A stretch of DNA of 64,000 nt from Maribacter flavus (lineage in GTDB: Bacteria > Bacteroidota > Bacteroidia > Flavobacteriales > Flavobacteriaceae), in the NCBI RefSeq assembly GCF_008386635.1, contig NZ_VUOE01000001.1, positions 1,488,001 to 1,552,000 of the forward strand. The letters run 5' to 3'. Within the stretch, counting starts at the first letter, position 1, and every line of letters begins with the position of its first letter. The translations under genes were made by a program, and so were the position numbers. The notes beneath the pieces were generated by a model. That model made no database searches. It had not been told where the DNA came from and saw only the letters and a program-made list of their open reading frames with translations. This document shows, piece after piece, positions 8,486 through 29,089 of this stretch.

Positions 8486-9442
8486 TCAATAGGTACACCT
8501 GCAATTGCTGATACCTTGGAATAGATCCACACCTATGGTAACGACATGAGTACCTGTACTATAGCCCAAAATCTCGTTCAAGATTATCTGATAGGAGTAT
8601 CCAAAATAAAAGTTGCTTTTCTTTAACCCTAGTATCGGGGCTATATAGAGCGGGTTTCCTATCTGGTCGTTCAAGAACCTGTATGTAACCCCTGCGTAGT
8701 AGTAATCCTCAAAATCGTACCATCTGAACTTTACGTTCAAATCCGTTTCGGACCTGCCATCACTTTCAAAAATCTTGAACAACATAGAGGGCTCAATTTC
8801 CAAATTACTTGTCCTACTTTTGGTATATCTGTAGCCTGTATACACATAATAGTTTCTCAATTCATTGGGCTCGTCTATATCAAAGGTAAGGTCTCTTGGA
8901 TCCTTGTCCAATAGGTTGGAGGCATTCGCCGCAAAGTAAAACTTGTCATATCGATACAAAACGCCCACATCAAAATTGTGGTTAGTCGTTTGCCTGTTGT
9001 TTACGATTCCATTATCGGGAAAGTCGATAAGATTGAACTGATCAATGTCGATATTGAACTGGTTAAAATTGTAGGAAAGGCCAAAGGATAAAAACTCGTC
9101 CTCATACCTATCCAAAGTTAGGTGATGGGCAAAAGAAACCCTGGCGCCCCTTTGTTTGGTATATCCGTTTGAATCGTTATATAGAAACACGCCCACCCCG
9201 GATTTTTCCCCAATCCGCATATCAGCGGCCAAGGATTGTGTCCTGGGAGCATCCTTTATGCCTACCCATTGTGCCAAACCATTGAGCCGTATCTTAACAT
9301 GGTCTCCAATCCCTGCATAGGTGGGGGCCAATACAAACGGGTTATCCGCCAGATACTGGGAGAGCTGTGGGGAATTAAGTTCTTGACCTCTTACGAAGAA
9401 GGCGCTTGTGATAAGTGCTAAGGTCAATAATCTCTTAAACAT
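8486..9442 (-). CDS. sprF: PorP/SprF family type IX secretion-associated outer-membrane protein
   Basis: The 318-residue product has a signal peptide ending near VRGQE and then a beta-barrel pattern of alternating amphipathic strands, many ending in aromatics. The start QELNSPQLSQYLADNPFVLAPTYAG matches the PorP/SprF family, whose members have a conserved N-P-A-x-x-G-like segment. In Flavobacterium johnsoniae SprF is needed to put the SprB adhesin on the cell surface. Here the gene lies 17 bp downstream of the giant SprB-like gene, the same arrangement. The symbol is assigned by family plus position; closely related paralogues exist in most flavobacteria. Confidence 0.85.
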   Translation of the reverse strand: MFKRLLTLALITSAFFVRGQELNSPQLSQYLADNPFVLAPTYAGIGDHVKIRLNGLAQWVGIKDAPRTQSLAADMRIGEKSGVGVFLYNDSNGYTKQRGARVSFAHHLTLDRYEDEFLSFGLSYNFNQFNIDIDQFNLIDFPDNGIVNNRQTTNHNFDVGVLYRYDKFYFAANASNLLDKDPRDLTFDIDEPNELRNYYVYTGYRYTKSRTSNLEIEPSMLFKIFESDGRSETDLNVKFRWYDFEDYYYAGVTYRFLNDQIGNPLYIAPILGLKKSNFYFGYSYQIILNEILGYSTGTHVVTIGVDLFQGISNCRCTY

Positions 9443-9459: not shown

Positions 9460-12400
9460 TTATCTATATAAAGTGAAATGGCCAACAAATTCCCTACTAT
9501 CTTCCTCCCCGTTCAATTGAATGACGTACCAGTAATCTCCGGTTGGCAATTCCTTGCCTTCGTATCTTCCATCCCAGCCCTTGGCATCATGGGCCTGTCT
9601 TGAAACCACTCTACCATAACGGTCATAAATCTTTATTAGTATATCTGGGAATTGCTGAATATTTTTTGGTATCCAGAAGTCGTTTTCGCCATCACCATCC
9701 GGGGTAAAGAAGTTAGGAATATCCACATCAATGAATTCCATAAAGATGCTGGCCATCATCTCACATCCGTTTTGGTCCACTACCCTAACCTCATAGGTGC
9801 CCGTCCTCATAATGTAGAACGTATTGTCGTTTCCATTGTCAACACCATCAAAATAATAGGTGTATTCTGGACTACCTCCCTCGGCAATGGCCGTTATCTC
9901 GTTTAAGCTTCGCTGTTCAGGAAGCAGGATCAACGGGTCGAAACTTTCAATGGTGAAGTCTACCGTAACCAAACAGCCATTTGAATGCGCGATGGTGATA
10001 TAGTGATTTCCTGGAGCAATGTTCCTAAAGTCTGGATTGAGTTGCAGCGCAGAAGCATCCGTACTATCCAATGCGTACATCACATCCCCAATGAGGCTTT
10101 CATCCTCCAAGGTGATGTTCACGTAATTGTCCGGAAGGTCTCCCGTACACACATAAACAGGTTCAACCGTGGCGTTAAGATTTACACCTGGTTCTATATC
10201 CACGACCACATTGGTCTCACAGCCATTGGCATCCCTAACGAAAATCAAATAGTTGCCGGCGGCCATATCAACAAAAGAGGTCCTGTCCTGCACAAAGTCA
10301 GCATCATCATTGGAATTCAACGCCGTACTATACGGAGCCGTACCTCCCGTGATGTTCAATGAAATCGTTCCGTCCTGACTATCCACGCAAATTTCTGGGG
10401 TAGTAGTGGCATCAACCATTAGCATGGATGGTTCCGTAATGGTATACTCCAAATATTCGAAGCATCCATTCTGATCTTGGGCGATGATGATGTAATCTCC
10501 CGGTTCCAGATCCGTAAACGTGTTTACGGTATCGAACTGGTTCAGGTTGGGGGAAATGGCATATTGATATCCTCCAGAACCACCAGAAAGTGTAACGGTA
10601 ATACTACCATTTCCTTCCCCTTCACAGGTTACATTGATTACCTCATCAACATAGGTCAATGGTGCAGGTTCCGAAATGATAACCTCCTCTGGCAATGTGG
10701 TACAATCCTCACTTGTTACCGATACATAATATGTTCCGGCAGGCAGGTTTCTAAATTCGCCAATGGATGTTGGACCGGCAATTCTTGCGGCAACGCTTAA
10801 GGAAGCATCGGTAAACAATTCGAACTGATAATTACCAAGTCCTCCAAATGCATCGGCATAGATAATGGCGGTACTTTCACCCGTACAATTGATGTATGCT
10901 GCCGATTGGTCCACAAATAACACCAAGGGGTCGATCATGTCTTCCGTAATCGCATTTGACTGAACCGCATCACAACCGTTGATAGCGTCCCTTACAAAGT
11001 ATTGATAAGTTCCTGCACCCAGTGTTCCAGTTGCAGGTAATCCCATTGGATTGCTGGTCATTGGCAAAAAGTTGATACCATCGATACTATATTCATAGGT
11101 GCCACTGCCCCCTGTTGCCGTAAGCTCAAACTCAACACCGGTTGCACAGGTCAAAGGGTCGGTACGTATCAATTGCGCACTGACTGGAGTGGGTTCAATA
11201 ATCTCGACCGTGTTGGTAGTCACGTCACAATCCCAACCGTCCGTAACCGTAATGCTGTAAATACCGGCACCCAAGTCATTGAAATTGGGGCTTAGTTGCG
11301 ACGCCGTAGAGAAAAGGATCGTCGTGCCATCCGCATCAATATAGTTCAAGATATATTCATAAGAACCGCTTCCTCCGGCAACCGTTATGTTTGCGGTAAC
11401 CGTAGCGCCCATATCGCCATAACATGCCAAATTGGTCACTAAAGGAGTCGCGTTTGCAACTATGGGTGTAGCAGGGTCAAGTACCACAGTGTCCGTGTAA
11501 GGACAACCTGCTTGGTCCGTGACCGTAATGTCATAGATGCCTGCGGATAGTCCACTAAAGACATTGGCATACACATTGTTTTCAGTAAACGTATCGGTTC
11601 CATTGGTGATGGAAATGGTATAAGGTCCGAATCCACCTTGGGGAACTACGCGAATTTCACCCCTATCGTTGGTACATGTTGGCTGCGAAAGAATGTCCGT
11701 AGTTGCCGTTAGTGCCATATCCGGTGAGGCGATGGTCACCATATTGGTATCTTCGGAACAAAAAGGCACATCCGTTTCCGTAATGGTGACGTAATAATTG
11801 CCCCCGGAAAGACCTCCAACAACCCTAGGGTTAACGGACGTATCCGTACTCACCACTCCGCCTACAGGGTTACCTGCAGCATCGAATATTTGATAATTAT
11901 AGTTCCCAGTATACCCTGTGATGTTTATTTCCAATTCACCATTGGAATCACCAAAACACGTAACCGGAGTAACTGCAGTGGCTGTAGCCCTAATGAAATC
12001 ATACGGTTCTACATTATAGGCGGGCGTATCAAAATAACATCCAGTATCTACATCGGTTACCCTAAACGTGTAGGAACCTGTTGTCAATAGGTCAAAAGTA
12101 GCCGTGGTGGCCGTAGACCCTGTTTGTACTGCATTTGTATTGCCAATAGGCAATAACTCGTACGTATACGTATGCGCCAAACCATTGTCTGAAACCGTAA
12201 TGGTAACCGTTTCATCATTTGTACAGGTGATGTCCACATCTGTAGCGACCGATGCCGTAAACCTATTGATAGGCTGAATGATGACGGAATCCGTTGCGAT
12301 ACATCCATTGGCATCCCTAACATAGACCGTGATATTTTGCACCGTCCCGTTATCAGCGATATTGAATGTATTGGCTGATTGATAGGTAATACCATTTAAG

Positions 12401-15400
12401 CTGTATAAGTATGGCCCCGTTCCCGAAAGAACCCCAGGGGTCGCGGCACCATCTTCCACAGTAATAGTTACCACAGCCGTATTGATGCTGTTATCCGGAG
12501 CACAATCAAATGTGGTCGCAGAAGCACTAATGACCAAAGGTTGTGGTTCCGTTATCGTTTCGTTCTTGATGTCTTCACAACCTAGTCCGGACACCACTCT
12601 CACTTGGTAGTCTCCTGCCGGTAGGTTATCAAACAAAGGGCTGCTTTGTAATGGTCTATTTGAAGCTCCAGCACTTACCCCAATCAATTCATATTGATAG
12701 TTAGGATTTCCATCCGTAGTTGGGTCTAAAATAGCCCTTAAACTACCGTCACTACCTCCTTCACAGCTTACGTCGATTATGGTGGCATCCAATAAAACGG
12801 GCGTTATTGGAGCAACTAGCGCTTGTGAGATACTTTTCTGACATACGGGATTCGTAGTATCCAAGTCCCTAACTACAAAATTGTAAATTCCAATTTCAGT
12901 TAGATTTGTAAAAATACCTGTTGATTGGGTGACTATTGTACCTGATGGTGTGGTCATAACAAACTCTAGGTTTGTGGAACCCCCCGTTACACCAACTGTG
13001 ATTTCGCCACCTGGATTAAGGGTACAGTCGATTGGCTTGTCTACGGTCGTTGACAAATTCATTTCTTCGTACAGTAAAACGGCCGGGGTTGTCGCGCTAC
13101 ATCCCCACTGATCGGTAACCATTACCTCGTAGTTGCCGGTGCCCAATCCAGAGAATATAGGCGTATTCTGGGAAGCACGGAAGTTAGAACCGTTCAATAC
13201 CAACTGATAGGTAAAGTTGGACCCTTGGCCTCCTGATGCCAATACTTCAATCTCACCTTCCAAATTGGTACAGTTTTCCTGATTTACCTGTAAGCTGGCA
13301 GTTATTGGGGTAGGATCTACCAACACAATAGTGTTGTCTATCAATTGCTCACAACCTTGGGCATCCCTTACCCAAGCCTGATACGTTCCAGCTGAAAGTC
13401 CCCCTAACATTGGAGATGCTGTATAATCCGTAGGCAAGGTAGGTGCTGCTACACCTATATAATAGGTATAACCTCCCCATCCACCTTGAACGTTGATAAT
13501 TTCTATACTACCATCGTTGCCAGGAACGCAGGTAATGTCCATTGTTGCAATTGCTCCACTAATGGCCATACTGGGCCCGGCAATGGTGAACGCTTCGGTG
13601 TTTACACAGAATGGGTTGTTGTCCTGTGCAATTGATACATAATAACTTCCGGCAGGTAAATTGATGTCGGCCATTGGACCGTTGGTGGCCTCATTGCCTG
13701 TTGTTACTAAAATATCATCGGCGGTATTTGCCAAGGTTCCGTTGGTGTCGTAAACTGTCCATGTAAACCCACCCGGATAGGTCGCGTCGACCAATTCGAA
13801 ATTGACCGCACCTGTTGATGTTCCATAACATTCCACATCGCTTACATTGGTCACATTAATCGTAAAAGTGTTAGGCTCCAACAAGGTTTCGGAAGCCGAG
13901 ATGATACAGCCTGTATCGATGTGCCTTGCCAAAATGGTATACGGTCCAGCCGCCAAACCTGGGAAGACATTGGATACTTGATAGTTCGAACCATTATCGA
14001 TACTATATTCGAATCTCGAAGGGTCCCCTAACGTAGACACTACGCTCATGGTCAATTCCCCGTCGTTTCCTGGGTTACATGTAACCGTATTCGTGATGCT
14101 GACCGAAGCGGATATCAATTCGTCAAACGGATTTACAATGGCAGTCGTGGAGCCTAAACAGCCGTTGCTATCGTACACATTGATGGTATAGCTTCCACCA
14201 GCAAAATCGGTTTCAGTGTACACGGGATTCGTTCCAGATTGAACAACTACCGGAGCCTCTATGGGTGCCGTGTTCGGGTCGTCCTCTTCTATAAATTCAT
14301 ACCTCACGTAAGTTCCTGAACCACCTGTAATTGCCGAAGTATCTATGGTAATCGTTGCGTTGTTTTCGTTGTTTCCAACCGTACAGGCAAATTCAACCAC
14401 CGATGCATTCACATTGGTGATGATTTCAGGCTCTGTAATTGCCTGAGTGATGTCCATTGAACAACCATTGGCCGCGGTAACCCTAATGGTGTAGGTGATT
14501 CCTGGGGCAATCAAACCTTCCAACCCTTGGAACGTGGCCCTTGTGGCCGTACTGGTCGTTGGTGCAATAGGGAATGTTGCACTGCTTCCAGGTCCGGAAA
14601 TTATTTCATAGGAATAAGGTCCGGTGCCCACATCCGTACTCGTTACGGTTATGGATCCGTCATCGGCCCCGTTACAAGTAACATCCGTAAAACTGGAAAC
14701 ACTAATGTTTGGTAGTACCGCTGGCGGAACATTGACCACGATGCTGCCCAAACAATTGGGTATCGCCGTACTTGTATCATATACCGTTACAGTATAGTTG
14801 CCGTCAATACTGGCACCTGTCCATGTGATACTTGAACCGCCCATTGCTGTTCTTGCTTGGTCCACTGCTCCGGGGCCATCAATTTCATAATCGTAGGAAC
14901 CAGATCCCGCGGTCACATTGATTGTGATTTCCGCATTGTTGGCAGGAACTACCTCACAATCCAATAAGGTTGTCAACGTAGCATTGAACTGTAAGGGTGG
15001 TTGAATATCAAATGTTTCAGTAACTGAACATCCATTTACATCCCTAACCTCTATAGTTTGTGCCAAACCAGAGCTAAGGCCTGTTACCAAGTATTGGTTG
15101 CTGACATCAAAGGTAAAGTTTTGGAAGGCATTTCCATTCACCCTTATCTGGAAAGGGGCCGAAGCTACCAATGGATTATCCAAGGTTACACTTACTTGGA
15201 ACATTCCCTCATCGGCACATTCATCAACAATACTCAAACTAATTATTGGACTTGGATCTTCCAATACCGTGATAGGCCTTTGGAAAATACAACCATAAGC
15301 ATCCTTAACATACACGATATAATCACCGGCTTCTACATTTGCTGTGGTGTTATTTATCCATCCCGCATCAGTTGTCAAAGGAGCAGGGGCGGTATCCAGT

Positions 15401-18400
15401 AAATATTGATATTCATACGGAGCCGTTCCGTTTCGTCCCGCTGCGGTAATGATGCCCGCGTTGAGGTTACAATTGTCGTTTTGTGGAGAGGCGACATCCA
15501 AATCCAGCGCAAAGGCGGATTCACGTATCGTAAAAGTACCTCCATCTACGGAACAACCGTTGTTGGGTCCGCCCACTTCCGTAAGCAATAAATAGTATTC
15601 CCCTGGAGGCAAGGTCGCAAAATTGCTTACCGTAACGGAACTGGGTGGGTTTACACTGGATGTACCCATATACCCGGTTGTTATGTTGGATTGCCTGTTG
15701 AAAACTTCATATTGTACATCGGTAGCAGCAACATCAAACCCAGAAAAAGTAAAGGATACGTTACCATCTGCGGAACCTGTACAACTTACGTTATTAACAG
15801 CGTCAAGCGTAGCCACCATGGATGATGGCGTGTTGATGGGTGCAGCGGCCTCCTCAAAATAATAACAATTGGTGGTCAAATCGAAAACCACAAAAGTATA
15901 CGTGATGCCAGGTGTAAGTCCGGTAAACGTTGAAGTAAAGCCTCCAAGAACATCCGGAGCCTGATAGCTACTGGAATAAGGAGCCGAATACGTTTCCAAA
16001 ATGGCAAATTCGTAGTTCCCACTTCCTACGGCAGCACCAACAGATACTACGGCCGTTCCCCCTACCAAACAATCAACCGTGGCCGTAGATACATCAATAT
16101 CCAGATCATTGGGAGGTGAGGCAATGATTTCGGTCGTGTAGGAAGCACAACCATTGGCATCCACTACGTCAATTTGATAAATACCGAATTCCAATACCGT
16201 AAACGTATGGTCACGCGTAGACGGTGTGGTGGTATGGGTTTGGGTTGGAATCCCGTTGTTACCCGTTAAAATATAGGTATACTCGGCCGTTCCGCCTGAA
16301 ACGCCTGAAATAGAAATTTCTCCCGGATTTGTGGTTCCCAATCCAGCATCACAGGTAATTGGTACATCCGAAGTAGTATATACAATAGGGCTTGGTTCAG
16401 CAATAATTACAGGAAAAGGAGCGGAAACACAACCCTTATCATCTGTAATGGTCACCTCATAATTGCCCGCAGGCAACCCAGTGGTCTGGGTTCCGTAATT
16501 GGTAGGGCCAGAAGTTTCCACTACATTGATTACATAAGGAGGCACGCCCACAGAAGTATCTATTTGAACATCCAAAGAGCCCGTGCTTTCACCATTACAA
16601 AGAATATCTGTTGGAACTACATTCGCAATTACGGGAGTTTGGGCTTCCGTAATGGTAATAGGATTTGTTACCACCACACAATTTACGGGCGTAGAGGTAT
16701 CCGTAACCCTAAAAACAAAGTTCCCAAATAGGTTGGTCGTAAATACGTTCCCGGCAAAGTTCGTATTGGAAAAAGTAGTTCCCCCATCATTGGACCATTC
16801 GTATGAATAGGTTCCAGAACCTCCGTTGGCATTTATTGTAACGGATGCATCCACCAAACACGTTAAATCGTTCGTTAGGACCGCGTTCGCAGTCAATTGG
16901 GGATTTATCGTTACCGTTTGGGTATTGGCCGCCAAAGGACAACCTAGGGCATCCCTTACTTCAATATCATAAGAACCTGCGGAAAGATTACTAAAGGTAT
17001 ATGTAGTGGCTGTCGTTGGTGTTGGAGCCAACCAAGGACCGCCGTTTATCCTAAACTGATAGCCTCCGTTGCCACTGGTAACGTTCACTACAATCTCACC
17101 ATCGTTGTTTCCACTGTAACACGTTGTGGGTTCTGCCGTAAACACAATTGGGTCGGTGGGATTTATGGTGAGCGGGGCGTCAATTATATCCTCGCAATTG
17201 TTTATATCACGCACACGCACCAAATAATCGCCCGGGGCAAGTCCGCTGAAAGTGGTATTGCTGCCATTAGTGGCAAAATCAAAACCTGCAATAATGCCTC
17301 CTACACCATCTTCCAGTTGATACCTATAGTTGGGGGTGCCACCCATAGCCGATGCGATGATAACTCCTCCATCCGTACAAGTAGCCTGACTAATGATCGT
17401 TGCCGAAGCAACCACAGGAGTAGGTTCGTTAATCGTTTGGTTCAAGGTAACCGTACAGCCTGCAATTGGGTTATCCACATCCCTGATAGAAATTGTATAG
17501 TTCCCCGCGGAAAGACCGGAAATGATCTGTGGGGACGTTGTGGAGCTACCCAATATCGTAGAGAAGTTGTCCAAACTATATTCAAATCCCCCAGCGCCAA
17601 AATTATCTACGTCAAAAGAAATGGAGCCATCCGTATCTCCATTACAGGTAACATCCATGGCAGAAACAATGGAGGCCTCAAATGCGTTGCCCGGTTCAAC
17701 AGTTACATCTATGGTTACCGTTTGTGGGCATTGTTCCGGAAGTTGTGTCGCGACGATATTATCGATAACAACATCGTTTCCTGCAGTTGCAGTTCCAATG
17801 GTCCTTATTACTATATCCAAATTTGTCTCCGCACCTGGATTTAATGTGATGTTGTAATTTTCCCAGATATCAGGATCCGTACTCTTTGGAATATTACCTG
17901 TGGGTATGCTTGCTATGACCGTGCCCGATGAGTTTACCAGTTGAACATCCAGATTGGCATCAGCCCCTGTAGAACCAACAAATTTGAGATTAAAAACATC
18001 AATGGAAATGGTAATGTCCCTATTTGGAACCACTTCGATTCCCCTTTTGGCATAAACAATACCATTTACACCGGCGACCCCACCAATATTTATAGCAAGG
18101 TATCTACCATTTGGGTTTCCGGATTGTTCGTTGGGTACCAACCATGTATAAGGGTTCACAATGGTATTTGCCACAGAGTACTCCCCGTCCTGTATATGGG
18201 TGTCCGTACCAAAGCTAGGACAACTACTTGGGCTTCCGTCTTGAGGTTCAAAACAGAATAATGGGTCTATTTCCGTAATGCTGGTTGGCGCACCAACACC
18301 AAAATCCTCACGTAATAAAACACTCGGAGAAGGAGCCACATTACTGATATAATCTACCGAAATCGTATGGGTGCCGACAGGAACATTGGTGAAAATATTC

Positions 18401-21400
18401 GAATCTGCAGGTGTATTTGGCGTCCCATTCAAGCTATACGTGTAATCCAAGCTAGGATCGTCCGTTCCTATGGTTACGATACCCGTTCCATCACAGGAGT
18501 AATCGACCGTTGGGGTCAAGGTAACATTGGGAGGTGTTGGTGCCGGATCAATTGTTACGGACATTGGGTAAGTACAACCGTTGGCATCTTGCACGTATAG
18601 CGTATGTGTACCTGCCAATAAATAATCAATGGCATTCGCCCCATAGGACAATCCTCCGTCAAAACTGTAGGAATATGGTGCCGTTCCTCCTAGTACATTG
18701 GTAATCCGTACCTCAGCACCGGCACTTGGATTACATTCGATCAACTGGGTAACGGCAGCGGAAGCGGACAAGGTAAAAGGTTCCGTAATCGAATATAACT
18801 GACTTAACTCGCAATTATTGGCATCCCGTACCCGAACCGTGTAATTCCCCGTGCCCAGGTTATTAAAGGTATTGGTTGTTTGATAGGTTGCTCCGTTATT
18901 TATACTATAACGATAAGGAGCTTCCCCACCACTTGCCACAATGGTTATGGTTGCTTGGTTTTCTCCACTACAAAGAATTGGTGTGTTGGATACTGAAAGG
19001 GCCAATGGAGCATCTTGAACAATATTGATGTCATAGCTGGCTTCACAGTATCCTGTGATTCCGTTGTTATCTCGAACATAGACATCATAGTCTCCCGGAG
19101 CACTTACGGTAACAGGATTCGTCGTTGAGAAATCACCTGCAGTTGGTGTAACACCATCGGCAACAACAGCGTATACATAATTTCCGTCTCCACCGGCTGC
19201 TGTAATATCAATATCCGTATCCGAGGTACATGCGGTAATATTGCCAGCACTGGCAATAAGACTAAGTTCAGGATTAATTGTTATGGTTTGTGTATCCGTA
19301 CAACTATTTCCGTCCCTAACATTGATGATATAGGTTCCAGGGGCAAGGCCTGTAAACACATTTGATGAGCTATAACCACCTCCGTTGATATTATATTCAA
19401 AATTACCATCGCCTCCTGATGTAACATTGGCCGTTATCGTCAATCCAACCGCATCGTCATAACAGAAATCATTGGGCGTTACTGCCAGTACAGGAGCGGT
19501 TGCCGGGTTTATATCAAAAGTAAAGGGTACCGCACAATTGTTGGCATCCGTAACGGTGCCCGTATAGGTGCCTCCTTGGGTCAATCCATTAAATACGCCA
19601 TTCGTATTGGTGCCGAATAGCGAGGTATCCGGATTATAAAGGGTATATTCATAGCTTCCCCATCCACCCGATGCAGCAACGATTACACTACCATCGTCCA
19701 AACACGTGGGTTGCGTTACCATAGGTGCAGCTACCGTCAATGCCGATGGAGGTCCTTCCAAGGTATGGGTCGTATTGTACGTACAATTGGTATCCGTATC
19801 CAAAATGTCCAAGGTGTAATTGCCCGAGCCCAGGTTAGGAAGGCTTATTGTGGCCTGAACCCCTCCCGTAGCAACAGTTCCGGAAGGTCCGGTTACGGTA
19901 TAGGTGAAATTTTGTCCGGTTTGATAATTAACGTTGAACTGTATCGTACCATCGGTCGCACCAAAACAGGAAACGGGAGTTACCGTGATACCACTCATGG
20001 TAATAGGTACAATAGGTGCTATGGTATGGTTTTCTTCGTAAAAACAACCATCGGCATCCGTTACCCTAATGGTATATGTATCCGGGGCCAAACCGTTAAA
20101 GTCGGCCGTATTTCCTAGAGTGGCATCCGGTGCTATCGTTGAAGGGGCAACAATCTGAATGGTCAAAGGAGCGGTCCCCCCAATTGAGGTAACCTGTAAA
20201 TCTACCGTACCACTTGGACAGGTTATTTGGGATTCAACAACCGTAATATCCGTTGGAGGGTCCGTTGGGTCGATGATTATTGGAGTTGTGGCATATACAC
20301 ATCCCGCAGCATCCCTAACCGATACGGTATAGGAACCGGCGGTTAAATTTTCAAATCGATGTGCGTTTGGGGTCGAATCGGGAATAAAGTTTATTCCATC
20401 GATACTATAGCTGTAAGGTGCCGTTCCTCCGGATACATTCTGGGCCTCTATAATGCCATCTTGCAAACAGGAATAATCCTGAACTAATGCTGATTCCGCA
20501 AATAATGCATTTGCCGGACCGCTTATAGTATGGTAATACGGATAGTTGCAGTCCGCGCTTCCTCTACGCATATTGACCACAATGGTGTAGTCGCCAGGCA
20601 TGAGGTTTCCAAAATAACCAGAAGCATTGGCGGCAATCGCATCGTTGATATCAAAATTATCGTTGATCACATCGATTTGTGGAATGTCAATATCGAATAG
20701 ATAGTACGTAAGTTGGTAGCCATTATCGTCCAAAAGATTCATCTGTATGGACCCCGAAGCATCGCCAAAACAAGCTTGGTCTTCAATGGTAGCGCCTGAA
20801 AATTCGGCTGCCGGTCTAAATTCAATAGTAACCGTGTTGGAAAATGCAAAACAATTGTTTCGATCTACCACCACGAAGGTGTAATCACCGGGATTATAGA
20901 TATCGAAGATTTGGCTGGACTGGAATTCGGTCGCAGGTATATCCTGGGGTGTTGGGTAGGAGGTAACTATAGTACCCGTTTCGTCCTCATAGGACCAAAT
21001 AGCGTATCTATGGGGTGTTTGGCCCCCAGTGGAGCTCATGAGAATATTTCCTTCCCTACAGGTGATGTGTTGTGAGACCCGCGCCTCTATTTCCAAATCA
21101 TTGCCGTCGACAAGGGTTACCTGCTCCGAATGGGTACAACCATCTTGGGTACGGGCAATAACAATATAGTTTCCTGCATTCAGGCCGGAAAAGGTAAAAT
21201 CATTGTCTATCTGCGCGGTTTCATCATCGATCAAGGTCCCTAGACCACCGTTGGAACCATCGTCCAAACGAAGTTCATATTCATAATTGGGCTCGGCATT
21301 GTTAATTTGAATGTTGATACTTCCCTGTGATATACAATTGGGGTCCGTATGGGATACATCAAAAGTTACGTCCCTATCCAAAACTCCAATGACCGGAGTC

Positions 21401-24012
21401 CTAAAAATACAGGCATTGTCAATAGGATCTCCATTTAGGTCCAACTGGGTAACCTCCACCACATAACTGCCATTTTCACCCGCGTTAAAATCAAAACTAG
21501 GCCCATTGTTGGCACTGAAAGAAATCACGACGGTATCCGTATCGTCATTTACCAATTGGTATCCATAGCCATTCCCCAAATTGGTGATCGTGATGTTTCC
21601 GGGATTGGCACAAATGATGTCTTCCTTGGTATACTGGATGTCCAAGTTGTTTCTAAATACGTTGAAGTAGAAGCGACTGGTACACCCATTTTGATAGGTG
21701 ACAGAAAGCCTGAACTGGCCTTCCGTATTCGCCGTATAGGTATTGCCGGTTGCCACTTGGTTCCAGGTACAGGTCAAGGCCCTATTGGCACAATCGTCCC
21801 CAGAAGGGCTGCAGCTTCCTTCGTCCAGCTGTTCCCAAACAATGGTTTGTGCATCAATAATGTTAATTTGTAACTCCTTTGTGTCCGCAGCGCCACATAG
21901 AAACAACTTGGGCAACATGGCATTGTCCACACTGCATTGAACAATTTCACCGGCGATATCGTTGTAAGGATCCGTATCATTATTGACGGCGTTCATCAAC
22001 TCAATTATAGGGTTGGGTATCAAACCTGCTCCATAGGGAGTGACCGTAATGATTTCCTTGAACCCCTTACAAGGGTCTGCTACTATCTTGTCCACGATAT
22101 AAGTACCCACCTGCGTAACAACGATGGTGCTTGGGTCATTATCCGGGTCACCATCGGTAATGACCGTATCGGTCGCGTCAAATTGATTGTTTCCGTTATC
22201 GTCCCTTACCCATACATATTCGTCAAAGCCATCTCCGGCATTCAATATGGCCGAACTTCCACATAGTTCTACGGTGCGTTGAAAATTACAGTCCGAAAGG
22301 TCATCCAATAGGAAGTTTGTGGCTCCAGGAACCACAAAACCACAAGCATTGAAGTCCGTTACACTGGGGTCATCTGTAACCATAGCGGTATTTTCAACTC
22401 CTTGATACGAGGAGTAGGCCAAATTCTGAATCAAATCCGAACATGCATCAATAAAATCGAAACAGTTTTCTGCAACCTGAACCCGCATTCTAATAGAATA
22501 TTCAGGTCCATCCTCTTCTACCAGATTATTTGGAATCGAAAAAATAACTTCTCTTGAAGCAGGTGTATATACGTAAGTTACCCCTGGAGGTAACGCAAAA
22601 TCAGATGGTATAAAGTCTGTTCTGCCGTCAGGCGGAGAAACATTTATTGGTAGGACATCTCGAATGGTATAATTGTCCGCATCATCATTCCCAATATTTT
22701 GAAAGGATAGTACATAATCCAAAACTTGGCCCAAATTAACTCCCTGACCGGTAATGTCCACACCGCCAGGAGTGTTAACCCGTTTTTCCAAAACAATATT
22801 TGGAGCGATAATTTCTATATCGAACGACGTAAAAAAGATATCATATTTGTCCTGAGAGGAACTTGCCCTCAATACGGCACTAGTGGCATCGTTTGGTATG
22901 ACATTGTTGAATTGATTGTTTATCTCAAAAAGATCTATGTCCCAACCCAAGGTATTGATACTATTGGGGGTTCTATCTGTAACCAATGCGTCGTAACGAG
23001 TAATATTTGAGTTGAAAAAGTTTGTAGCTGGGTTTAATGTATTGGATAAAGGTGTAAAGACGCCACCACCAAAGGCATCGATAGCCAATCCATCGCCTGA
23101 TATCCTATTATCCCCTTCCAAAGCAGCAACACCAATTTTGGCGTTCACAGGAAAAGGAGCCGGTAAACTGGTGAACCCACTTACCGGTATATCAACAGTT
23201 TGTCCAGATGCAATTCCTGCGTATCCATCAAAAGTGGTGATATATCTACTGCCGGGAAGATTTGGATTCTCATACACTACAACCAATTTCCAACCACCAG
23301 AAATACCGCCAGAAATACCACCTCCCAAACTGGCCCTAACATTTGCCACCGTATATTCTCCGTTTGGATCCGGTAACGCGGTAAGTATACTCGTTACATC
23401 CCTGTATGCTGCATATGGACTGTAATAACCAAAATCTGCATCCCCATTGCCGTCGAACAGTATTTCATCGGCGGTTATGTCTTGGTAGGCACCGCCCGGT
23501 ACCCTAAACCTGATCTGGTCAATAGTACTACGATCCGGATTTACATAGACGGCGGACCAATACAAACCGGCATATCGAATTAAGGAACATGTAGGATCTG
23601 GAACCGTTAAAATTGCACTACTTGAGCTGAAGGTACTTGGGTCACCATCCACGTCAATATATTGCATGTCTAAGTTATCATTGTACTCAGAAGAACTGCC
23701 GGTCAAATTGTACGGTTCGTTTGGAGAGGTTGCAGGTATTGTAACCGTTACCCTTCTCCATCTTCCATTAATGAATTGCCACTCCTGTCTTGTTTCCTCT
23801 TGGGTTTGTCTATTGACAATGTTGTTGCCTGCAAAGGTTAGTTCACCCCTAATATCCGCGGAATACCTTACCTCAAAATTGTTCTTTACCTGTGAAAAAG
23901 TTGAAAAAGTTCCGATTACCAAAAAAATCAGAAACAATGAAACCCTCAATAAAGAGATTCTAATATTAATATTTGGAACGGTAAACTCCAAAAAGGTAGT
24001 TTGTTTGGTCAT
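9460..24012 (-). CDS. sprB: Giant SprB-like gliding adhesin with T9SS type B sorting domain
   Basis: A 4850-residue surface protein. The ATG at 24012 (MTKQTTFLEF) is preferred over a GTG seven codons upstream; a signal peptide ends near TFSQVKN. Residues about 40-420 form an unassigned N-terminal domain. A DUF11-type domain (NIVLEKRV...LGQVLDYVLSFQNIGN) follows, then a Cys-rich Ig-like part. From about residue 800 to 4760 I count some 43 SprB-type modules: Cys-x-G start, GG-x-x-PY-x-Y core, GxYx-V-x-VxDxxGC end. The last 88 residues (IPNFFTPDGDGENDFW ... GKELPTGDYWYVI) are a type B C-terminal sorting domain. An unrelated segment of about 195 residues interrupts the modules near residues 1895-2090. 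In gliding flavobacteria SprB moves along the cell surface and drives gliding. Gene order around it supports the name; orthology rather than paralogy is inferred. Confidence 0.85.
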   Translation of the reverse strand: MTKQTTFLEFTVPNINIRISLLRVSLFLIFLVIGTFSTFSQVKNNFEVRYSADIRGELTFAGNNIVNRQTQEETRQEWQFINGRWRRVTVTIPATSPNEPYNLTGSSSEYNDNLDMQYIDVDGDPSTFSSSSAILTVPDPTCSLIRYAGLYWSAVYVNPDRSTIDQIRFRVPGGAYQDITADEILFDGNGDADFGYYSPYAAYRDVTSILTALPDPNGEYTVANVRASLGGGISGGISGGWKLVVVYENPNLPGSRYITTFDGYAGIASGQTVDIPVSGFTSLPAPFPVNAKIGVAALEGDNRISGDGLAIDAFGGGVFTPLSNTLNPATNFFNSNITRYDALVTDRTPNSINTLGWDIDLFEINNQFNNVIPNDATSAVLRASSSQDKYDIFFTSFDIEIIAPNIVLEKRVNTPGGVDITGQGVNLGQVLDYVLSFQNIGNDDADNYTIRDVLPINVSPPDGRTDFIPSDFALPPGVTYVYTPASREVIFSIPNNLVEEDGPEYSIRMRVQVAENCFDFIDACSDLIQNLAYSSYQGVENTAMVTDDPSVTDFNACGFVVPGATNFLLDDLSDCNFQRTVELCGSSAILNAGDGFDEYVWVRDDNGNNQFDATDTVITDGDPDNDPSTIVVTQVGTYIVDKIVADPCKGFKEIITVTPYGAGLIPNPIIELMNAVNNDTDPYNDIAGEIVQCSVDNAMLPKLFLCGAADTKELQINIIDAQTIVWEQLDEGSCSPSGDDCANRALTCTWNQVATGNTYTANTEGQFRLSVTYQNGCTSRFYFNVFRNNLDIQYTKEDIICANPGNITITNLGNGYGYQLVNDDTDTVVISFSANNGPSFDFNAGENGSYVVEVTQLDLNGDPIDNACIFRTPVIGVLDRDVTFDVSHTDPNCISQGSINIQINNAEPNYEYELRLDDGSNGGLGTLIDDETAQIDNDFTFSGLNAGNYIVIARTQDGCTHSEQVTLVDGNDLEIEARVSQHITCREGNILMSSTGGQTPHRYAIWSYEDETGTIVTSYPTPQDIPATEFQSSQIFDIYNPGDYTFVVVDRNNCFAFSNTVTIEFRPAAEFSGATIEDQACFGDASGSIQMNLLDDNGYQLTYYLFDIDIPQIDVINDNFDINDAIAANASGYFGNLMPGDYTIVVNMRRGSADCNYPYYHTISGPANALFAESALVQDYSCLQDGIIEAQNVSGGTAPYSYSIDGINFIPDSTPNAHRFENLTAGSYTVSVRDAAGCVYATTPIIIDPTDPPTDITVVESQITCPSGTVDLQVTSIGGTAPLTIQIVAPSTIAPDATLGNTADFNGLAPDTYTIRVTDADGCFYEENHTIAPIVPITMSGITVTPVSCFGATDGTIQFNVNYQTGQNFTYTVTGPSGTVATGGVQATISLPNLGSGNYTLDILDTDTNCTYNTTHTLEGPPSALTVAAPMVTQPTCLDDGSVIVAASGGWGSYEYTLYNPDTSLFGTNTNGVFNGLTQGGTYTGTVTDANNCAVPFTFDINPATAPVLAVTPNDFCYDDAVGLTITANVTSGGDGNFEYNINGGGYSSSNVFTGLAPGTYIINVRDGNSCTDTQTITINPELSLIASAGNITACTSDTDIDITAAGGDGNYVYAVVADGVTPTAGDFSTTNPVTVSAPGDYDVYVRDNNGITGYCEASYDINIVQDAPLALSVSNTPILCSGENQATITIVASGGEAPYRYSINNGATYQTTNTFNNLGTGNYTVRVRDANNCELSQLYSITEPFTLSASAAVTQLIECNPSAGAEVRITNVLGGTAPYSYSFDGGLSYGANAIDYLLAGTHTLYVQDANGCTYPMSVTIDPAPTPPNVTLTPTVDYSCDGTGIVTIGTDDPSLDYTYSLNGTPNTPADSNIFTNVPVGTHTISVDYISNVAPSPSVLLREDFGVGAPTSITEIDPLFCFEPQDGSPSSCPSFGTDTHIQDGEYSVANTIVNPYTWLVPNEQSGNPNGRYLAINIGGVAGVNGIVYAKRGIEVVPNRDITISIDVFNLKFVGSTGADANLDVQLVNSSGTVIASIPTGNIPKSTDPDIWENYNITLNPGAETNLDIVIRTIGTATAGNDVVIDNIVATQLPEQCPQTVTIDVTVEPGNAFEASIVSAMDVTCNGDTDGSISFDVDNFGAGGFEYSLDNFSTILGSSTTSPQIISGLSAGNYTISIRDVDNPIAGCTVTLNQTINEPTPVVASATIISQATCTDGGVIIASAMGGTPNYRYQLEDGVGGIIAGFDFATNGSNTTFSGLAPGDYLVRVRDINNCEDIIDAPLTINPTDPIVFTAEPTTCYSGNNDGEIVVNVTSGNGGYQFRINGGPWLAPTPTTATTYTFSNLSAGSYDIEVRDALGCPLAANTQTVTINPQLTANAVLTNDLTCLVDASVTINANGGSGTYSYEWSNDGGTTFSNTNFAGNVFTTNLFGNFVFRVTDTSTPVNCVVVTNPITITEAQTPVIANVVPTDILCNGESTGSLDVQIDTSVGVPPYVINVVETSGPTNYGTQTTGLPAGNYEVTITDDKGCVSAPFPVIIAEPSPIVYTTSDVPITCDAGLGTTNPGEISISGVSGGTAEYTYILTGNNGIPTQTHTTTPSTRDHTFTVLEFGIYQIDVVDANGCASYTTEIIASPPNDLDIDVSTATVDCLVGGTAVVSVGAAVGSGNYEFAILETYSAPYSSSYQAPDVLGGFTSTFTGLTPGITYTFVVFDLTTNCYYFEEAAAPINTPSSMVATLDAVNNVSCTGSADGNVSFTFSGFDVAATDVQYEVFNRQSNITTGYMGTSSVNPPSSVTVSNFATLPPGEYYLLLTEVGGPNNGCSVDGGTFTIRESAFALDLDVASPQNDNCNLNAGIITAAGRNGTAPYEYQYLLDTAPAPLTTDAGWINNTTANVEAGDYIVYVKDAYGCIFQRPITVLEDPSPIISLSIVDECADEGMFQVSVTLDNPLVASAPFQIRVNGNAFQNFTFDVSNQYLVTGLSSGLAQTIEVRDVNGCSVTETFDIQPPLQFNATLTTLLDCEVVPANNAEITINVTAGSGSYDYEIDGPGAVDQARTAMGGSSITWTGASIDGNYTVTVYDTSTAIPNCLGSIVVNVPPAVLPNISVSSFTDVTCNGADDGSITVTSTDVGTGPYSYEIISGPGSSATFPIAPTTSTATRATFQGLEGLIAPGITYTIRVTAANGCSMDITQAITEPEIITNVNASVVEFACTVGNNENNATITIDTSAITGGSGTYVRYEFIEEDDPNTAPIEAPVVVQSGTNPVYTETDFAGGSYTINVYDSNGCLGSTTAIVNPFDELISASVSITNTVTCNPGNDGELTMSVVSTLGDPSRFEYSIDNGSNYQVSNVFPGLAAGPYTILARHIDTGCIISASETLLEPNTFTINVTNVSDVECYGTSTGAVNFELVDATYPGGFTWTVYDTNGTLANTADDILVTTGNEATNGPMADINLPAGSYYVSIAQDNNPFCVNTEAFTIAGPSMAISGAIATMDITCVPGNDGSIEIINVQGGWGGYTYYIGVAAPTLPTDYTASPMLGGLSAGTYQAWVRDAQGCEQLIDNTIVLVDPTPITASLQVNQENCTNLEGEIEVLASGGQGSNFTYQLVLNGSNFRASQNTPIFSGLGTGNYEVMVTDQWGCSATTPAVLLYEEMNLSTTVDKPIDCTLNPGGEITVGVTGGSTNLEFVMTTPSGTIVTQSTGIFTNLTEIGIYNFVVRDLDTTNPVCQKSISQALVAPITPVLLDATIIDVSCEGGSDGSLRAILDPTTDGNPNYQYELIGVSAGASNRPLQSSPLFDNLPAGDYQVRVVSGLGCEDIKNETITEPQPLVISASATTFDCAPDNSINTAVVTITVEDGAATPGVLSGTGPYLYSLNGITYQSANTFNIADNGTVQNITVYVRDANGCIATDSVIIQPINRFTASVATDVDITCTNDETVTITVSDNGLAHTYTYELLPIGNTNAVQTGSTATTATFDLLTTGSYTFRVTDVDTGCYFDTPAYNVEPYDFIRATATAVTPVTCFGDSNGELEINITGYTGNYNYQIFDAAGNPVGGVVSTDTSVNPRVVGGLSGGNYYVTITETDVPFCSEDTNMVTIASPDMALTATTDILSQPTCTNDRGEIRVVPQGGFGPYTISITNGTDTFTENNVYANVFSGLSAGIYDITVTDQAGCPYTDTVVLDPATPIVANATPLVTNLACYGDMGATVTANITVAGGSGSYEYILNYIDADGTTILFSTASQLSPNFNDLGAGIYSITVTDGWDCDVTTNTVEIIEPTPVSAQLIRTDPLTCATGVEFELTATGGSGTYEYSIDGINFLPMTSNPMGLPATGTLGAGTYQYFVRDAINGCDAVQSNAITEDMIDPLVLFVDQSAAYINCTGESTAIIYADAFGGLGNYQFELFTDASLSVAARIAGPTSIGEFRNLPAGTYYVSVTSEDCTTLPEEVIISEPAPLTYVDEVINVTCEGEGNGSITVTLSGGSGGYQYAISPNLNQFDTVNTFTDLEPGDYIIIAQDQNGCFEYLEYTITEPSMLMVDATTTPEICVDSQDGTISLNITGGTAPYSTALNSNDDADFVQDRTSFVDMAAGNYLIFVRDANGCETNVVVDIEPGVNLNATVEPVYVCTGDLPDNYVNITLEDESLIGDVMYALDSTDASALQLNPDFRNIAPGNHYITIAHSNGCLVTVDFTIESFDPLILLPEQRSLNEITAIAEGGSPEYTYYFDGVDNGNDNTFYIMRTGTYEVRVVDQNGCEMMASIFMEFIDVDIPNFFTPDGDGENDFWIPKNIQQFPDILIKIYDRYGRVVSRQAHDAKGWDGRYEGKELPTGDYWYVIQLNGEEDSREFVGHFTLYR
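9780..21640 (-). repeat. SprB-type module array with seven-module higher-order periodicity
   Basis: This is coding repeat DNA: about 43 modules averaging roughly 277 bp each. Modules resembling CxGxxDGxIxF with a tail rich in Pro-x-x-Ala-Leu recur every seventh module. The first Cys codon of these markers lies at 19966, 17644, 15781, 13828 and 11956, spaced 774, 621, 651 and 624 codons. The long interval contains an inserted non-repeat domain. The modules are diverged at DNA level, so this is old amplification rather than recent tandem duplication. Confidence 0.75.
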
Positions 24013-24106
24013 AGCACTATGTTCTAAAAGCACTTCGAGGGATTCAATTACAAATCACTACAGAATATGCCAATAACAAAGATTGTCCATACTAGGAAGG
24101 TTTGAA

Positions 24107-24416: not shown

Positions 24417-26639
24417 CTATGCCACTTGCCCGGGGGTAACCCTCATAATCCACATTTTTTCATCATAGGCATCGTTCAATTTAGAATAATAGGATATTAG
24501 GGCATTTGTCCAGGAATCATGTTTTTTTAAGTAAACATACCTCCAATTATTTTTGGGATTGATAAAATAGCTGGCGCTGAGTCCGTAGGAATTTAAAAGC
24601 GCCACAAACCTATTGGCGTTTTTTGGGTTTGCAAAAACATTGGCGATGATATAGTAACCGGACCCGATACCATCAATTTCGTAGTTTTCAGGTTCCGTAC
24701 CGTTGGCAGCCAATCTATCCTGTTGTACTACATTTTTACGAAGTACGTCCGTATCGTATTTGGAAGATTTCTCCCTTAACTTGTTTACATTGTTCACATA
24801 GGCTTCGTTGGTGTACCTGTTCTCAACGTTCATGATCCAGGTTTTGCCGTCATAGGCTCCGTTGAAATTTGAATCGTGGGCGGCAACTGCTTCCTCAAAA
24901 GTGTCATAGCGCTGTAAATACACGTATTTCAATCCGTTGTTTGGGTTGTCAATATAATCCGCCTGAATTCCTTTGGCATCCAAACTATTTAAGAATTTGT
25001 CCAGATACTTGCCCCCCTTGTAGACATTTGCCACCACATAGTAACCATCGGTTACATTGGGCAGGTCATTGAACTTTCTGCTTTTCACCCGTTCCTGAAC
25101 CACTGTTTTTTCCTGTTCCTGGTTTACCTTATTTTTCTGTGGAGGGGTATATGCCAGCACGTCTTTTTTGGTTTCTTCCCGTCTGATTTCCTGCTTTGGT
25201 CGGTTCGTTCTGGACACCTCGGTATTCACTATGGCATTGGATGTACCTTTCTCTTCGAACGAATTGTTGCTTTGTGTCACATCATCCATGGCTTTTGAAG
25301 CGGCATTTACATTGGTGGCCAAGGCGTCTTGGGCCGATGTATTCCGATTGGTATTTTCTGCTGGTTTTATTTCTCGCTCCCGAGTATTTTGTGCCGATGC
25401 CAATTTTACATCGGATTCGTCACCCCTGAAGATTTCTTCGGCCCTGCGTTCCAAATCGGGACGTTCGCCATTGGTTTCGTTCCTAACCATTTTCATAACC
25501 ATATTGAACCTTCGTTCCAGGTCTGCCTGTCTATTGGCCTCCAAGGAATCCTGCCGAAACATCAACTCTTCAATAATGGCATCGTTTTCGGCCAATTTCC
25601 TTTTCAGCTCCTCAATCTCATCATTCGTAGCAATGTTCTCCGGTTCAAAATCATTTTTAACCAAATCGTCTTCAAAATCATCTTCCAACATAACCCTGTC
25701 CTCGGTCAGGTTCGGTGTGAAGGAATAGGCAAAGGAAATTTCATGGGTAAGTCCAAAATTGTCAAAGTTGTTTGACAAGCCCTTCTCCATGGTATACCCC
25801 AAAGAAATCCGTTGGTTAAGATTAAATCCTACCCCGGCGGCAGCTCCATAAAAACTATCATAACCACCTTGGATCCAACCTATTTTTGGAAGGTCCAAAA
25901 TTAAGCTTCCCCCTAAGGTGATGTTATCCTCTTCTCCATCCATTCGAACCCTTGCCAACGGCATCAAACGCCCCGCTTCCAGAATTCCGGAACTATTTTT
26001 AAACTGATGGGTATATTGCAGGTGTCCGGAATAGGTTTTCTCACTAAAATCCGTAAGGGATTCACTTGTTTTTAAATTATAATCGAATAGGTTTTCTGCA
26101 AAGGCACCAATATCAAAATTTCCGTAGGATAGGTTAAATCCCGGTTGAAAGGATAAAAGGTTCTGGTCCTGGAATCCCGCCAAAAATGGATCTTCCTCTA
26201 CCGTTGTTGCACGGCCTTCGTCAAAACCACTATTGTAATAGGAAAGATTGGCCCCAAAGGTAAAATTGCTTTTATCGCTCAGTTTTACTCCGTAGGCGTA
26301 GTTTGCCAAAACACCATAGTTACTCAATGCCCCCAAACGCTGGGTATACAAACTCAATCCTAAACCGGTACGGTCGCTGATCCTACCACTATAACTCAAG
26401 AAATAGTTTTGGTTGTTATCGTCAAATTGTACCGATTGGTTCCTGTGCAATAAATTGATGTACGATTTGTCTTCCCGTACCGTAGAAAATGTTGGGTTTA
26501 TCAAAAACCGATTGTATTTCAACAGGTTTTGGGAAGGTACCTCGTACCCAAAATAAGGATTGTCTTCCTGCGCTTGGGCCTTAGAAAACCCAAGGGCAAG
26601 AAGTACAAATAATAGTAGTATACGTGTTTTAGGTAGCAT
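24417..26639 (-). CDS. PorP/SprF-like barrel fused to coiled coil and two SPOR-like repeats (SprD position)
   Basis: The 740-residue product has a signal peptide ending near SKAQAQED. Residues about 25-305 form a PorP/SprF-type barrel (QNLLKYNRFLINPTFSTVRED, GLGLSLYTQRLGALSNYG). A charged stretch with a short coiled coil follows (EIEELKRKLAENDAIIEELM, about 340-380), then a low-complexity Asn/Glu/Lys linker. The C-terminus has two tandem domains of about 75 residues: GYYVVANVYKGGKYLDKFLN...YVYLQRYDTFEEAV...WIMNV and GYYIIANVFANPKNANRFVA...YVYLKKHDSWTNAL...WIMRV. Both resemble SPOR domains, which bind peptidoglycan. Its place between the sprC-like and sprB-like genes matches sprD. The SprD name is positional inference only, so no symbol is given. 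Confidence 0.75.
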   Translation of the reverse strand: MLPKTRILLLFVLLALGFSKAQAQEDNPYFGYEVPSQNLLKYNRFLINPTFSTVREDKSYINLLHRNQSVQFDDNNQNYFLSYSGRISDRTGLGLSLYTQRLGALSNYGVLANYAYGVKLSDKSNFTFGANLSYYNSGFDEGRATTVEEDPFLAGFQDQNLLSFQPGFNLSYGNFDIGAFAENLFDYNLKTSESLTDFSEKTYSGHLQYTHQFKNSSGILEAGRLMPLARVRMDGEEDNITLGGSLILDLPKIGWIQGGYDSFYGAAAGVGFNLNQRISLGYTMEKGLSNNFDNFGLTHEISFAYSFTPNLTEDRVMLEDDFEDDLVKNDFEPENIATNDEIEELKRKLAENDAIIEELMFRQDSLEANRQADLERRFNMVMKMVRNETNGERPDLERRAEEIFRGDESDVKLASAQNTREREIKPAENTNRNTSAQDALATNVNAASKAMDDVTQSNNSFEEKGTSNAIVNTEVSRTNRPKQEIRREETKKDVLAYTPPQKNKVNQEQEKTVVQERVKSRKFNDLPNVTDGYYVVANVYKGGKYLDKFLNSLDAKGIQADYIDNPNNGLKYVYLQRYDTFEEAVAAHDSNFNGAYDGKTWIMNVENRYTNEAYVNNVNKLREKSSKYDTDVLRKNVVQQDRLAANGTEPENYEIDGIGSGYYIIANVFANPKNANRFVALLNSYGLSASYFINPKNNWRYVYLKKHDSWTNALISYYSKLNDAYDEKMWIMRVTPGQVA

Positions 26640-28894: not shown

Positions 28895-28998
28895 AGTGAT
28901 GTGTGGTTTTGTGCCCCAAATGATAGTGATGTTGTAGGTCAAACACTTTAAACCTTTGGTACTCAAAACAAATATGACACAAATAACGCGCGTAGGGT

Positions 28999-29035: not shown

Positions 29036-29089
29036 CGCATTTTGTACAAGGTGAACCTTTTTTAATCTTAGGTTTTGCGGCAATTTTGC

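Follow-up and report, generated by a model that had tools for sequence, protein, structure and literature searches.

In a 64,000-nucleotide stretch of the Maribacter flavus genome (contig NZ_VUOE01000001.1, positions 1,488,001 to 1,552,000; here called the window), a gene on the minus strand at 9460..24033 encodes a giant modular protein which, judged by its sequence and its neighbours, is the SprB gliding adhesin of a Maribacter, with a predicted role in gliding. Its long array of immunoglobulin (Ig)- and fibronectin type III (FnIII)-like modules repeats with a period of seven modules. Across relatives the array is never an odd multiple of seven modules long, differences in core size are usually split equally between two arms, recent duplications are found in both arms, and a marker motif occupies two phases of the seven-module repeat. 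Comparison between species also indicates that modules co-vary as mirror images about the centre. We consider it probable that a single SprB chain folds back at its variable centre, and that its antiparallel, wound arms need matched block changes.

The SprB array is built from blocks of seven modules

Cutting the array at each opening Cys gives 42 modules with both an opening and a closing Cys (M1 to M42), plus a last module that lacks the opening Cys. A first-pass annotation of this DNA had described an SprB-like adhesin of about 4850 residues with some 43 modules, which agrees well with the 4857 codons and 42 + 1 modules found here. The main parts of the array are:

15832..21660, minus strand: N-terminal arm, M1-M20 (module cut), with the axis between about 20 and 21
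9943..15831, minus strand: C-terminal arm, M21-M42 (module cut), on the other side of the same axis
14434..16908, minus strand: centre and proposed tip, M17-M25, most divergent among 13 chosen 42-module arrays
17695..18543, minus strand: M13 (module cut), with an inserted domain of about 165-200 aa

In an all-against-all alignment of the 42 modules, mean residual similarity peaked at lag 7 (+15.7, z 5.6), lag 14 (+12.1, z 3.9) and lag 21 (+10.0, z 2.7), and stood at -3.8 for lag 1 (z scores from lags 1-21 and 5000 order shuffles). A same-phase statistic gave z 7.6 for period 7 and z 4.9 for period 14 (2000 order shuffles), with a top z of 0.7 among the rest of periods 2-13. For 17 of the 42 modules the best partner lay a multiple of seven away, where 5.1 were expected. 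This is the alignment that the annotation had proposed, and nearest relatives that were adjacent or randomly placed, an outcome it had regarded as incompatible with its block structure, were not what we see. The alignment also rules out a randomly ordered array. Inverted repetition is likewise ruled out, as the seven-module similarity joins modules read in the same direction. Tandem Repeats Finder covers periods of up to 500 only, so that the block of 1.9 kb lies beyond its reach.

A domain inserted inside a module is also seen elsewhere among the 144 complete arrays described below, in module 6 in 57 arrays, module 13 in 24 and module 10 in one; in 81 of these 82 cases it stands at the same heptad phase.

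Array length changes mostly in steps of 14 modules

Orthologues were sought with the non-repetitive N-terminal domain as probe:

22234..23913, minus strand: N-terminal domain, with one full-length and one partial match in its own genome

Counting partial matches, the domain was found in 35 of the 36 genomes from the genus and in 99 of the 149 from the family. Its nearest named relatives are Maribacter sp. 4G9 and M. litopenaei (best segment 94%). Among 144 complete arrays, we find 22 modules in 21, 28 in 23, 42 in 44, 56 in 30, 70 in five, 84 in seven and 112 in one; the remaining 13 have 31, 34 (five arrays), 37, 40, 45 (two arrays), 48, 53 and 76 modules. A multiple of 14 (28, 42, 56, 70, 84 or 112) accounts for 110 of the 144 arrays, and an odd multiple of seven for none. 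The seven-module blocks are old and common to the family, and not peculiar to the window's protein.

The last 29 of the 144 arrays formed a held-out set, for which a prediction was written down before counting. Of these, 21 were multiples of 14 (19 if the last module added by hand to L228, L229 and L236, where the automatic end fell one short, is left off), and four had a core of 28 or 42 modules with three or six C-terminal extras, as allowed beforehand. Four more had larger C-terminal extras (9, 12, 25 and 48) that were unforeseen; odd multiples of seven were again absent. Three open reading frames (ORFs) of about 8150 aa that the prediction had named (L203, L205 and L207) proved to have 84 modules each, as predicted.

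On a tree of the N-terminal domain for 114 arrays (the first 115 minus the paralogue L062), the module count must have changed 34 times or more; with 31 and 34 taken as 28, and 45 taken as 42, this minimum drops to 32. The tree was built by a quick method; it has good support for 57 of its 111 inner branches, and some of its long branches come together. One account of these data is a neutral history, in which an early seven-module duplication was followed by unequal recombination between same-phase modules, in the absence of any fold-back or constraint. Same-phase modules are indeed the most alike, so recombination would favour shifts of seven, and recent lag-7 duplicates do exist. However, the absence of odd multiples of seven from all 144 arrays is left unexplained, and the many count changes needed on the tree speak against it. 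Neither the equally split changes of 3 + 3, nor the fresh copies in both arms, nor the mirror co-variation presented in the following sections is accounted for, and we regard this history as very improbable.

Gains and losses are mostly split equally between two arms

Between the window's array and its orthologues, gaps are mostly of seven modules, or of ten in comparisons with 22-module arrays. Where two arrays differ by d modules, aligning them module by module gave three main offset plateaus, at 0, d/2 and d. In a split test that allowed two gaps with any split of the difference, applied to the first 115 arrays (core sizes 22, 28, 42, 48, 56, 70 and 112), the equal split around a conserved centre was best in 4023 of 4606 pairs of differing core size, these pairs being non-independent. 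Shifts of seven are confusable with each other in such a test, same-phase modules being alike. Arrays of 22 and 28 modules, which differ by 3 + 3, are free of this seven-fold aliasing, and here the equal split was best in 419 of 420 pairs. For 42 against 48 modules, again 3 + 3, it was best in 41 of 41, all involving a single 48-module array.

The same arrangement can be read from individual arrays. Those with 22 modules have three modules a side fewer than those with 28, and the 48 modules of L035 fit a 42-module array with three added in each arm. In the close pair L024 (28 modules) and L023 (42 modules), with 66-92% identity per module, the extra modules of L023 are 8-14 and 27-33, mirror images about 20.5. 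Growth at one end, considered as a candidate, is ruled out for the core by the equal split and holds true of the C-terminal extras found in 12 arrays. The first-pass annotation had proposed that the adhesin grew by duplication of a seven-module block. The block is supported by the period of seven and by recent tandem duplicates in relatives, whereas serial growth does not hold, as the gain is matched, with seven modules per arm; the mirror balance of the array had been overlooked.

Each arm carries its own recent duplications

Fresh duplication, taken as at least four lag-7 pairs at 50% identity or more, was examined in 87 arrays of 42, 56, 70, 84 and 112 modules, many of those with 56 being closely related. 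Fresh seven-module duplicates were present in 37 arrays. In 36 of the 37 there were at least two fresh pairs in each arm, and in none did a fresh pair cross the centre. The 112-module array has 30 fresh pairs in the N-terminal arm and 29 in the C-terminal arm. The presence of fresh pairs in both arms, with none across the centre, indicates that each arm grew by copying its own modules while the total stayed balanced.

Marker modules recur every three or four modules

Certain modules carry a Gly-rich opening, C-x-G-x(2-4)-G. With phase counted within the seven-module repeat, the window's array has this opening motif in:

19753..20016, minus strand: marker module M7, phase 0
17428..17694, minus strand: marker module M14, phase 0
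15520..15831, minus strand: marker module M21, phase 0
13579..13878, minus strand: marker module M28, phase 0
11725..12006, minus strand: marker module M35, phase 0
20518..20820, minus strand: second-phase marker M4, phase 4
16402..16647, minus strand: second-phase marker M18, phase 4
14434..14724, minus strand: second-phase marker M25, phase 4
12553..12813, minus strand: second-phase marker M32, phase 4

The five phase-0 markers were already recognised in the first-pass annotation. Their first Cys residues are 1356, 2130, 2751, 3402 and 4026, which reproduces exactly the spacings of 774, 621, 651 and 624 codons given there (its coordinates for them denote the lowest base of each codon). The four tail sequences quoted for the markers do end M7, M21, M28 and M35, but M14 has no such tail. 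What had been missed is the second phase, phase 4, so that the marker recurs every three or four modules and not only every seventh.

In the window, nine of ten motif modules stand at phase 0 or 4. In the 110 arrays with multiples of 14 modules, each phase is represented by 746 modules, of which the motif opens 425 at phase 0, 516 at phase 4 and between 13 and 104 at each of the others; phases 0 and 4 together hold 941 of the 1243 occurrences. Modules of 42-module arrays with the motif in at least 40% are 4, 7, 11, 14, 18, 21, 25, 28, 32, 35 and 39, in steps of three or four. Similarity at lags 3 and 4 is slightly raised as well: in 78 of 86 arrays it is higher on average than at lags 2 and 5. 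By analogy, the 3-4-3-4 spacing of the two marker phases resembles that of the a and d positions of a coiled coil.

The motif pattern of 42-module arrays maps best onto itself by taking i to 39-i, with a reflection correlation of 0.87. For other sizes, too, the best reflection was at n-3, with correlations of 0.86 (56 modules), 0.75 (28), 0.76 (70), 0.72 (84) and 0.61 (22); n-3 was not the best reflection in the single 48-module array, the single 112-module array or the 34-module arrays with a C-terminal stalk. Since a periodic motif series fixes an axis only up to seven, the motif reflection serves as a consistency check on the axis obtained from co-variation.

Probable mirror co-variation of modules

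For arrays of one size, the distance between species was taken for each module, the overall distance was removed, and the modules were correlated with one another. In 42-module arrays the peak lies at i+j=40, with a mean r of 0.39, where other sums average -0.13; for modules at least 20 apart the signal is higher, at 0.47. With n-2 as the prediction for other sizes, 22-module arrays peak at 20 (r 0.23) and 28-module arrays at 26 (0.38). Those with 56 modules peak at 53 (0.44), followed by the predicted 54 (0.43). In 60 draws of random halves of the arrays per size, the peak was placed at n-2 or next to it every time for 42 and for 28 modules, 59 times for 56 and 44 times for 22. Shuffling pieces of the C-terminal arm, with the maximum taken over all sums, gave p 0.024 for 42 modules and p 0.028 for 56. 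Mirror co-variation is thus indicated, and partner modules tend to travel together, whichever the cause.

The centre is variable and is exchanged as a cassette

Among 13 arrays of 42 modules, chosen around Maribacter, modules 17-25 show a divergence of 0.56-0.71, compared with 0.30-0.58 elsewhere. Two very different centre cassettes (14434-16908 in the window) occur within one genus, with identities to the window of 27-30% in one group (L019, L021, L024, L036, L037, L039, L042 and L046) and 41-66% in the window's own group (the window's array, WIN, with L031, L038, L044, L047-L050, L053 and L060). Most flanking modules stay orthologous across the two groups. We also see that modules 17-25 lack an orthologous partner between L017 and L018 and between L015 and L005, with flanks that are mostly 0.5-0.9 identical. 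The centre is exchanged as a cassette within the genus, and such exchange, together with the divergence, would suit an adhesive end that contacts surfaces.

The swaps between L017 and L018 and between L015 and L005 also fit an account in which balance is inherited, through exchange between species of whole distal parts (both distal arms plus the tip) and with no selection per event; that no odd intermediates are seen agrees with this too. Such exchange does not explain where the first balanced donors came from, nor the tandem amplification in both arms of one array, and L023 and L024 keep their tip yet differ by one block on each side. We therefore rate its chances as very slim.

Structure prediction and solved relatives

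AlphaFold2 was run on the centre (M15-M27, 1183 residues, 55 sequences), giving a predicted local distance difference test score (pLDDT) of 84.0 and a predicted template modelling score (pTM) of 0.53, and on a better conserved stretch of arm (M1-M12, 1039 residues, 55 sequences), giving pLDDT 86.0 and pTM 0.31. That the arm has higher confidence for its modules and lower overall confidence than the centre is what would be expected from fold-back at the centre.

The modules are Ig/FnIII-like, and their best solved relative is GhpA (profile E 1.3e-26; Foldseek E 1.2e-25). Beyond GhpA, the rows returned by Foldseek and VIA-align are mostly common Ig/FnIII domains, uninformative on arrangement, and a PDB search with the whole protein gave no match at E 0.01. 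GhpA forms the grappling hook of Aureispira (a substrate of the type IX secretion system, T9SS; PDB 9flp and others), and resembles SprB in being a chain of Ig-like domains. It is a heptamer, according to PMC11205867, so its hooks differ in consisting of seven chains. The first Foldseek row for GhpA has a template modelling score of 0.25, meaning that the modules are comparable and the whole arrangement is not.

The mirror pairing could, in principle, take place between molecules, in a bundle of SprB chains such as an antiparallel dimer or a GhpA-like heptamer. GhpA, the only strong solved relative, is heptameric in its 8 entries (56 chains), and gliding legs are described as multimeric in PMC6791848. 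An antiparallel dimer, however, would hold its two C-terminal anchors at opposite ends, and this is difficult to square with the attachment of both to SprF on one cell; moreover, the raised pTM was obtained from a single-chain model of the centre alone. We consider pairing between molecules unlikely.

Gene identity and neighbourhood

The gene and its neighbours were annotated as follows:

9460..24033, minus strand: sprB-like gene, 4857 codons from GTG; Pfam SprB PF13573, E 1.1e-109
9463..9726, minus strand: T9SS type B C-terminal sorting domain, residues 4770-4857; TIGR04131 E 3.6e-27, CHU_C
8486..9442, minus strand: sprF-like gene (PorP/SprF family), product ending N-C-R-C-T-Y (Cys-x-Cys)
24417..26639, minus strand: sprD-like gene, PorP/SprF family plus a SPOR match
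26648..29083, minus strand: sprC-like gene, Ig-like domains and a CHU_C type sorting domain

Identification as SprB is based on the PF13573 repeats (358 bits against a cut-off of 28, in 11 stretches), the type B C-terminal domain, the sprC-, sprD- and sprF-like neighbours and the Cys-x-Cys tail of SprF. All of these, including the order of the neighbours, are shared with the SprB system of Flavobacterium johnsoniae. The sprF-like gene directly follows the sprB-like gene, and the order sprC-sprD-sprB-sprF is the arrangement of gliding bacteria; sprC, sprD and sprF reportedly form one operon with sprB. The Cys-x-Cys motif in the C-terminal tail of SprF is required for the gliding track, as stated in PMC12635249. 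For the sprB-like gene, an ATG at 24012, seven codons downstream of the GTG, is the likelier start, and a signal-peptide-like stretch directly follows it. The called start of the sprC-like ORF is probably too far upstream; its product has a CHU_C match above the cut-off and a TIGR04131 match below it.

Some further observations were made. The SprD-like protein (24417-26639) pairs its PorP/SprF domain with a SPOR match, unlike SprF. The window's own genome has a second SprB-like ORF, L062 (contig 1 from 122000; 4153 aa), whose N-terminus differs and whose array, of the same kind, has 28 modules. Within the window, 37552-41040 encodes a protein of 1163 aa whose sole match, to DUF4175, is below threshold and which has a low-complexity stretch rich in Gly and Gln. 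In other genomes, two sprB-type frames (4741 and 4748 aa) lie about 21 kb apart on contig 75 of G038 (at 55702 and 76773), and the 4445-aa sprB-type frame of L175 stops without a C-terminal sorting domain, being possibly broken or a sequencing error. In G012, which is probably the same genome as that of L121 (Maribacter litopenaei), the N-terminal domain is spread over two overlapping frames of 245 and 861 aa (contig 1, 3719162-3720842), perhaps through a frameshift or a phase switch.

Sample and counting rules

The sample is non-random: it was drawn from genomes in which the N-terminal match was long and the contig extended far enough, the first batch favoured longer ORFs, and held-out ORFs were chosen for a spread of lengths. 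Many arrays are close relatives, so that pair counts are not independent. Modules were counted between a fixed start (M1) and a fixed end; gaps of 150-250 aa with a Cys near the middle were filled, and a spacing of at least 250-260 aa was counted as one module with an insertion. A plain Cys-Cys count lacking the fixed start and end was rejected, as it gave 43-45 for many arrays by miscounting an upstream Ig-like domain, the insert and a weak module. Under the fixed rules, L006 went from 57 modules to 56 and L036 from 43 modules to 42. These rules took shape while the first 61 ORFs were being inspected. For the held-out run the module and start profiles were kept, and the end was set more simply, at the last opening Cys that lies over 190 residues from the end. 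Outside the held-out set, the last module was added by hand in L152, L035 and L059.

Excluded were the short copies L001 and L002; L058 and L227, whose ORFs run off the contig; L069, L113 and L122, whose ORFs stop before the C-terminus; L175, which is without the C-terminal domain; the truncated L148 and L202; the complete frames below 2000 aa L072, L108, L115 and L121; and, as truncated, the other named ORFs from L063 to L142 except L138 and L142. L238 was kept, its array being whole though its start is at a contig edge.

Discussion

We propose that the Ig/FnIII-like array consists of two near-equal arms joined between about M20 and M21. The SprB chain would leave the cell, turn at the centre, which would be the distal tip, and run back, placing module i of the N-terminal arm beside roughly module 40-i of the C-terminal arm. 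The antiparallel arms would wind together with a seven-module repeat, with the modules of the marker opening type at phases 0 and 4 acting like a and d residues. Arms held in register could gain or lose a block only if the other did so, and such a need for register would lead to matched gains and losses and to a core length that changes mostly in steps of 14; the tip could be swapped as a cassette. That the chain physically folds back, that its arms wind together and that its tip is the adhesive end are what we infer. A more specific form is a giant antiparallel coiled coil of one chain, having a heptad of domains (3.5 per turn), marker modules at a/d-like positions, changes of three or four modules as stutters, 14-domain quantisation and an exchangeable adhesive tip; here we see the arguments as evenly poised. 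Coiled coils supply the terms a/d and stutter. The likeness to a two-stranded antiparallel alpha-helical coiled coil is one of analogy, in that both would have a seven-unit repeat, special positions spaced by three and four, and tolerance of matched shifts of three or four. The units here are domains of about 85 residues, not residues, and there is no homology.

Several observations weigh against the proposal. The equal split is weak or not the best for 22 against 42 modules (628 of 861 pairs), 22 against 48 (1 of 21), 28 against 48 (7 of 20), 56 against 112 (9 of 24) and 48 against 112 (0 of 1). Twelve arrays have extra modules at the C-terminal side only (L030, L142, L182, L059, L209, L223, L224, L225, L226, L232, L236 and L239); they match a 28- or 42-module array from its start nearly to its end (L059 less clearly), and there is a strong period of three in the extension of L209, L224, L236 and L030, with 48 extra modules in L209. 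We read these C-terminal extensions as a stalk outside the paired arms. The 25 extra modules of L239 (53 modules in all) are nearly homogenised, are not a multiple of three and have no simple count. The numbers of fresh pairs are often unequal between arms, such as 2 and 6 in L005 or 15 and 10 in L215. Outside the 3-4 series, modules 2, 40 and 41 of 42 often carry the opening motif as well.

The mirror signal, too, is uneven. The shuffle null was not passed by arrays of 22 (p 0.46) or 28 modules (p 0.30), and one cluster of nine 42-module arrays has hardly any mirror signal (r 0.08; far pairs 0.20). Within the twelve arrays of the window's own cluster, sum 40 leads among far pairs only (0.39); over all pairs at least eight apart it reaches 0.29, against 0.42 for sum 70. 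The co-variation could moreover come from paired block turnover and nested tip exchange, and not from residue contacts. Over all 44 arrays of 42 modules, the divergence of the tip (0.71-0.78) scarcely differs from that of the rest (0.52-0.77). The pTM contrast is indirect and is one comparison, between stretches unlike in length and modules. As to the known systems, the F. johnsoniae SprB, compared by length alone, falls between the 56- and 70-module arrays with its 6497 aa, and the multimeric legs of about 20 nm thickness may possibly reflect bundling of chains.

SprB and its repeats are already known. In the accessible literature, with most subscription papers, including the first SprB paper, lying outside the search, nothing turned up on blocks of seven modules, steps of 14, arms of equal length or a chain that folds back. 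A module spans about 4 nm, so that 65 modules would measure about 260 nm if straight; for the window's 42-module protein we estimate a length of about 85 nm. The length of 6497 aa for F. johnsoniae SprB is from PMC9870892, while PMC13104615 describes a filament of about 150 nm formed by an SprB of about 6500 aa. The legs have helical repeats of 10.8, 17.0 and 8.5 nm, and are multimeric and about 20 nm thick in metal replicas, according to PMC6791848.

The construction of SprB, and the way in which it transmits force, are still open questions in gliding motility. The published accounts found give about 6500 residues, about 150 nm and a weak helical signal, with no array structure among them. 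If the proposal is true, fold-back would explain the length of the filament, which is about half the contour that roughly 65 modules of about 4 nm would have. It would also predict which modules touch, put the adhesive end midway along the sequence and yield a rule of evolution testable on further genomes. SprB would then be an unusual case of a long, stiff fibre made from one chain, and an example of a protein fold being revealed by matched changes in two widely separated parts of a gene.

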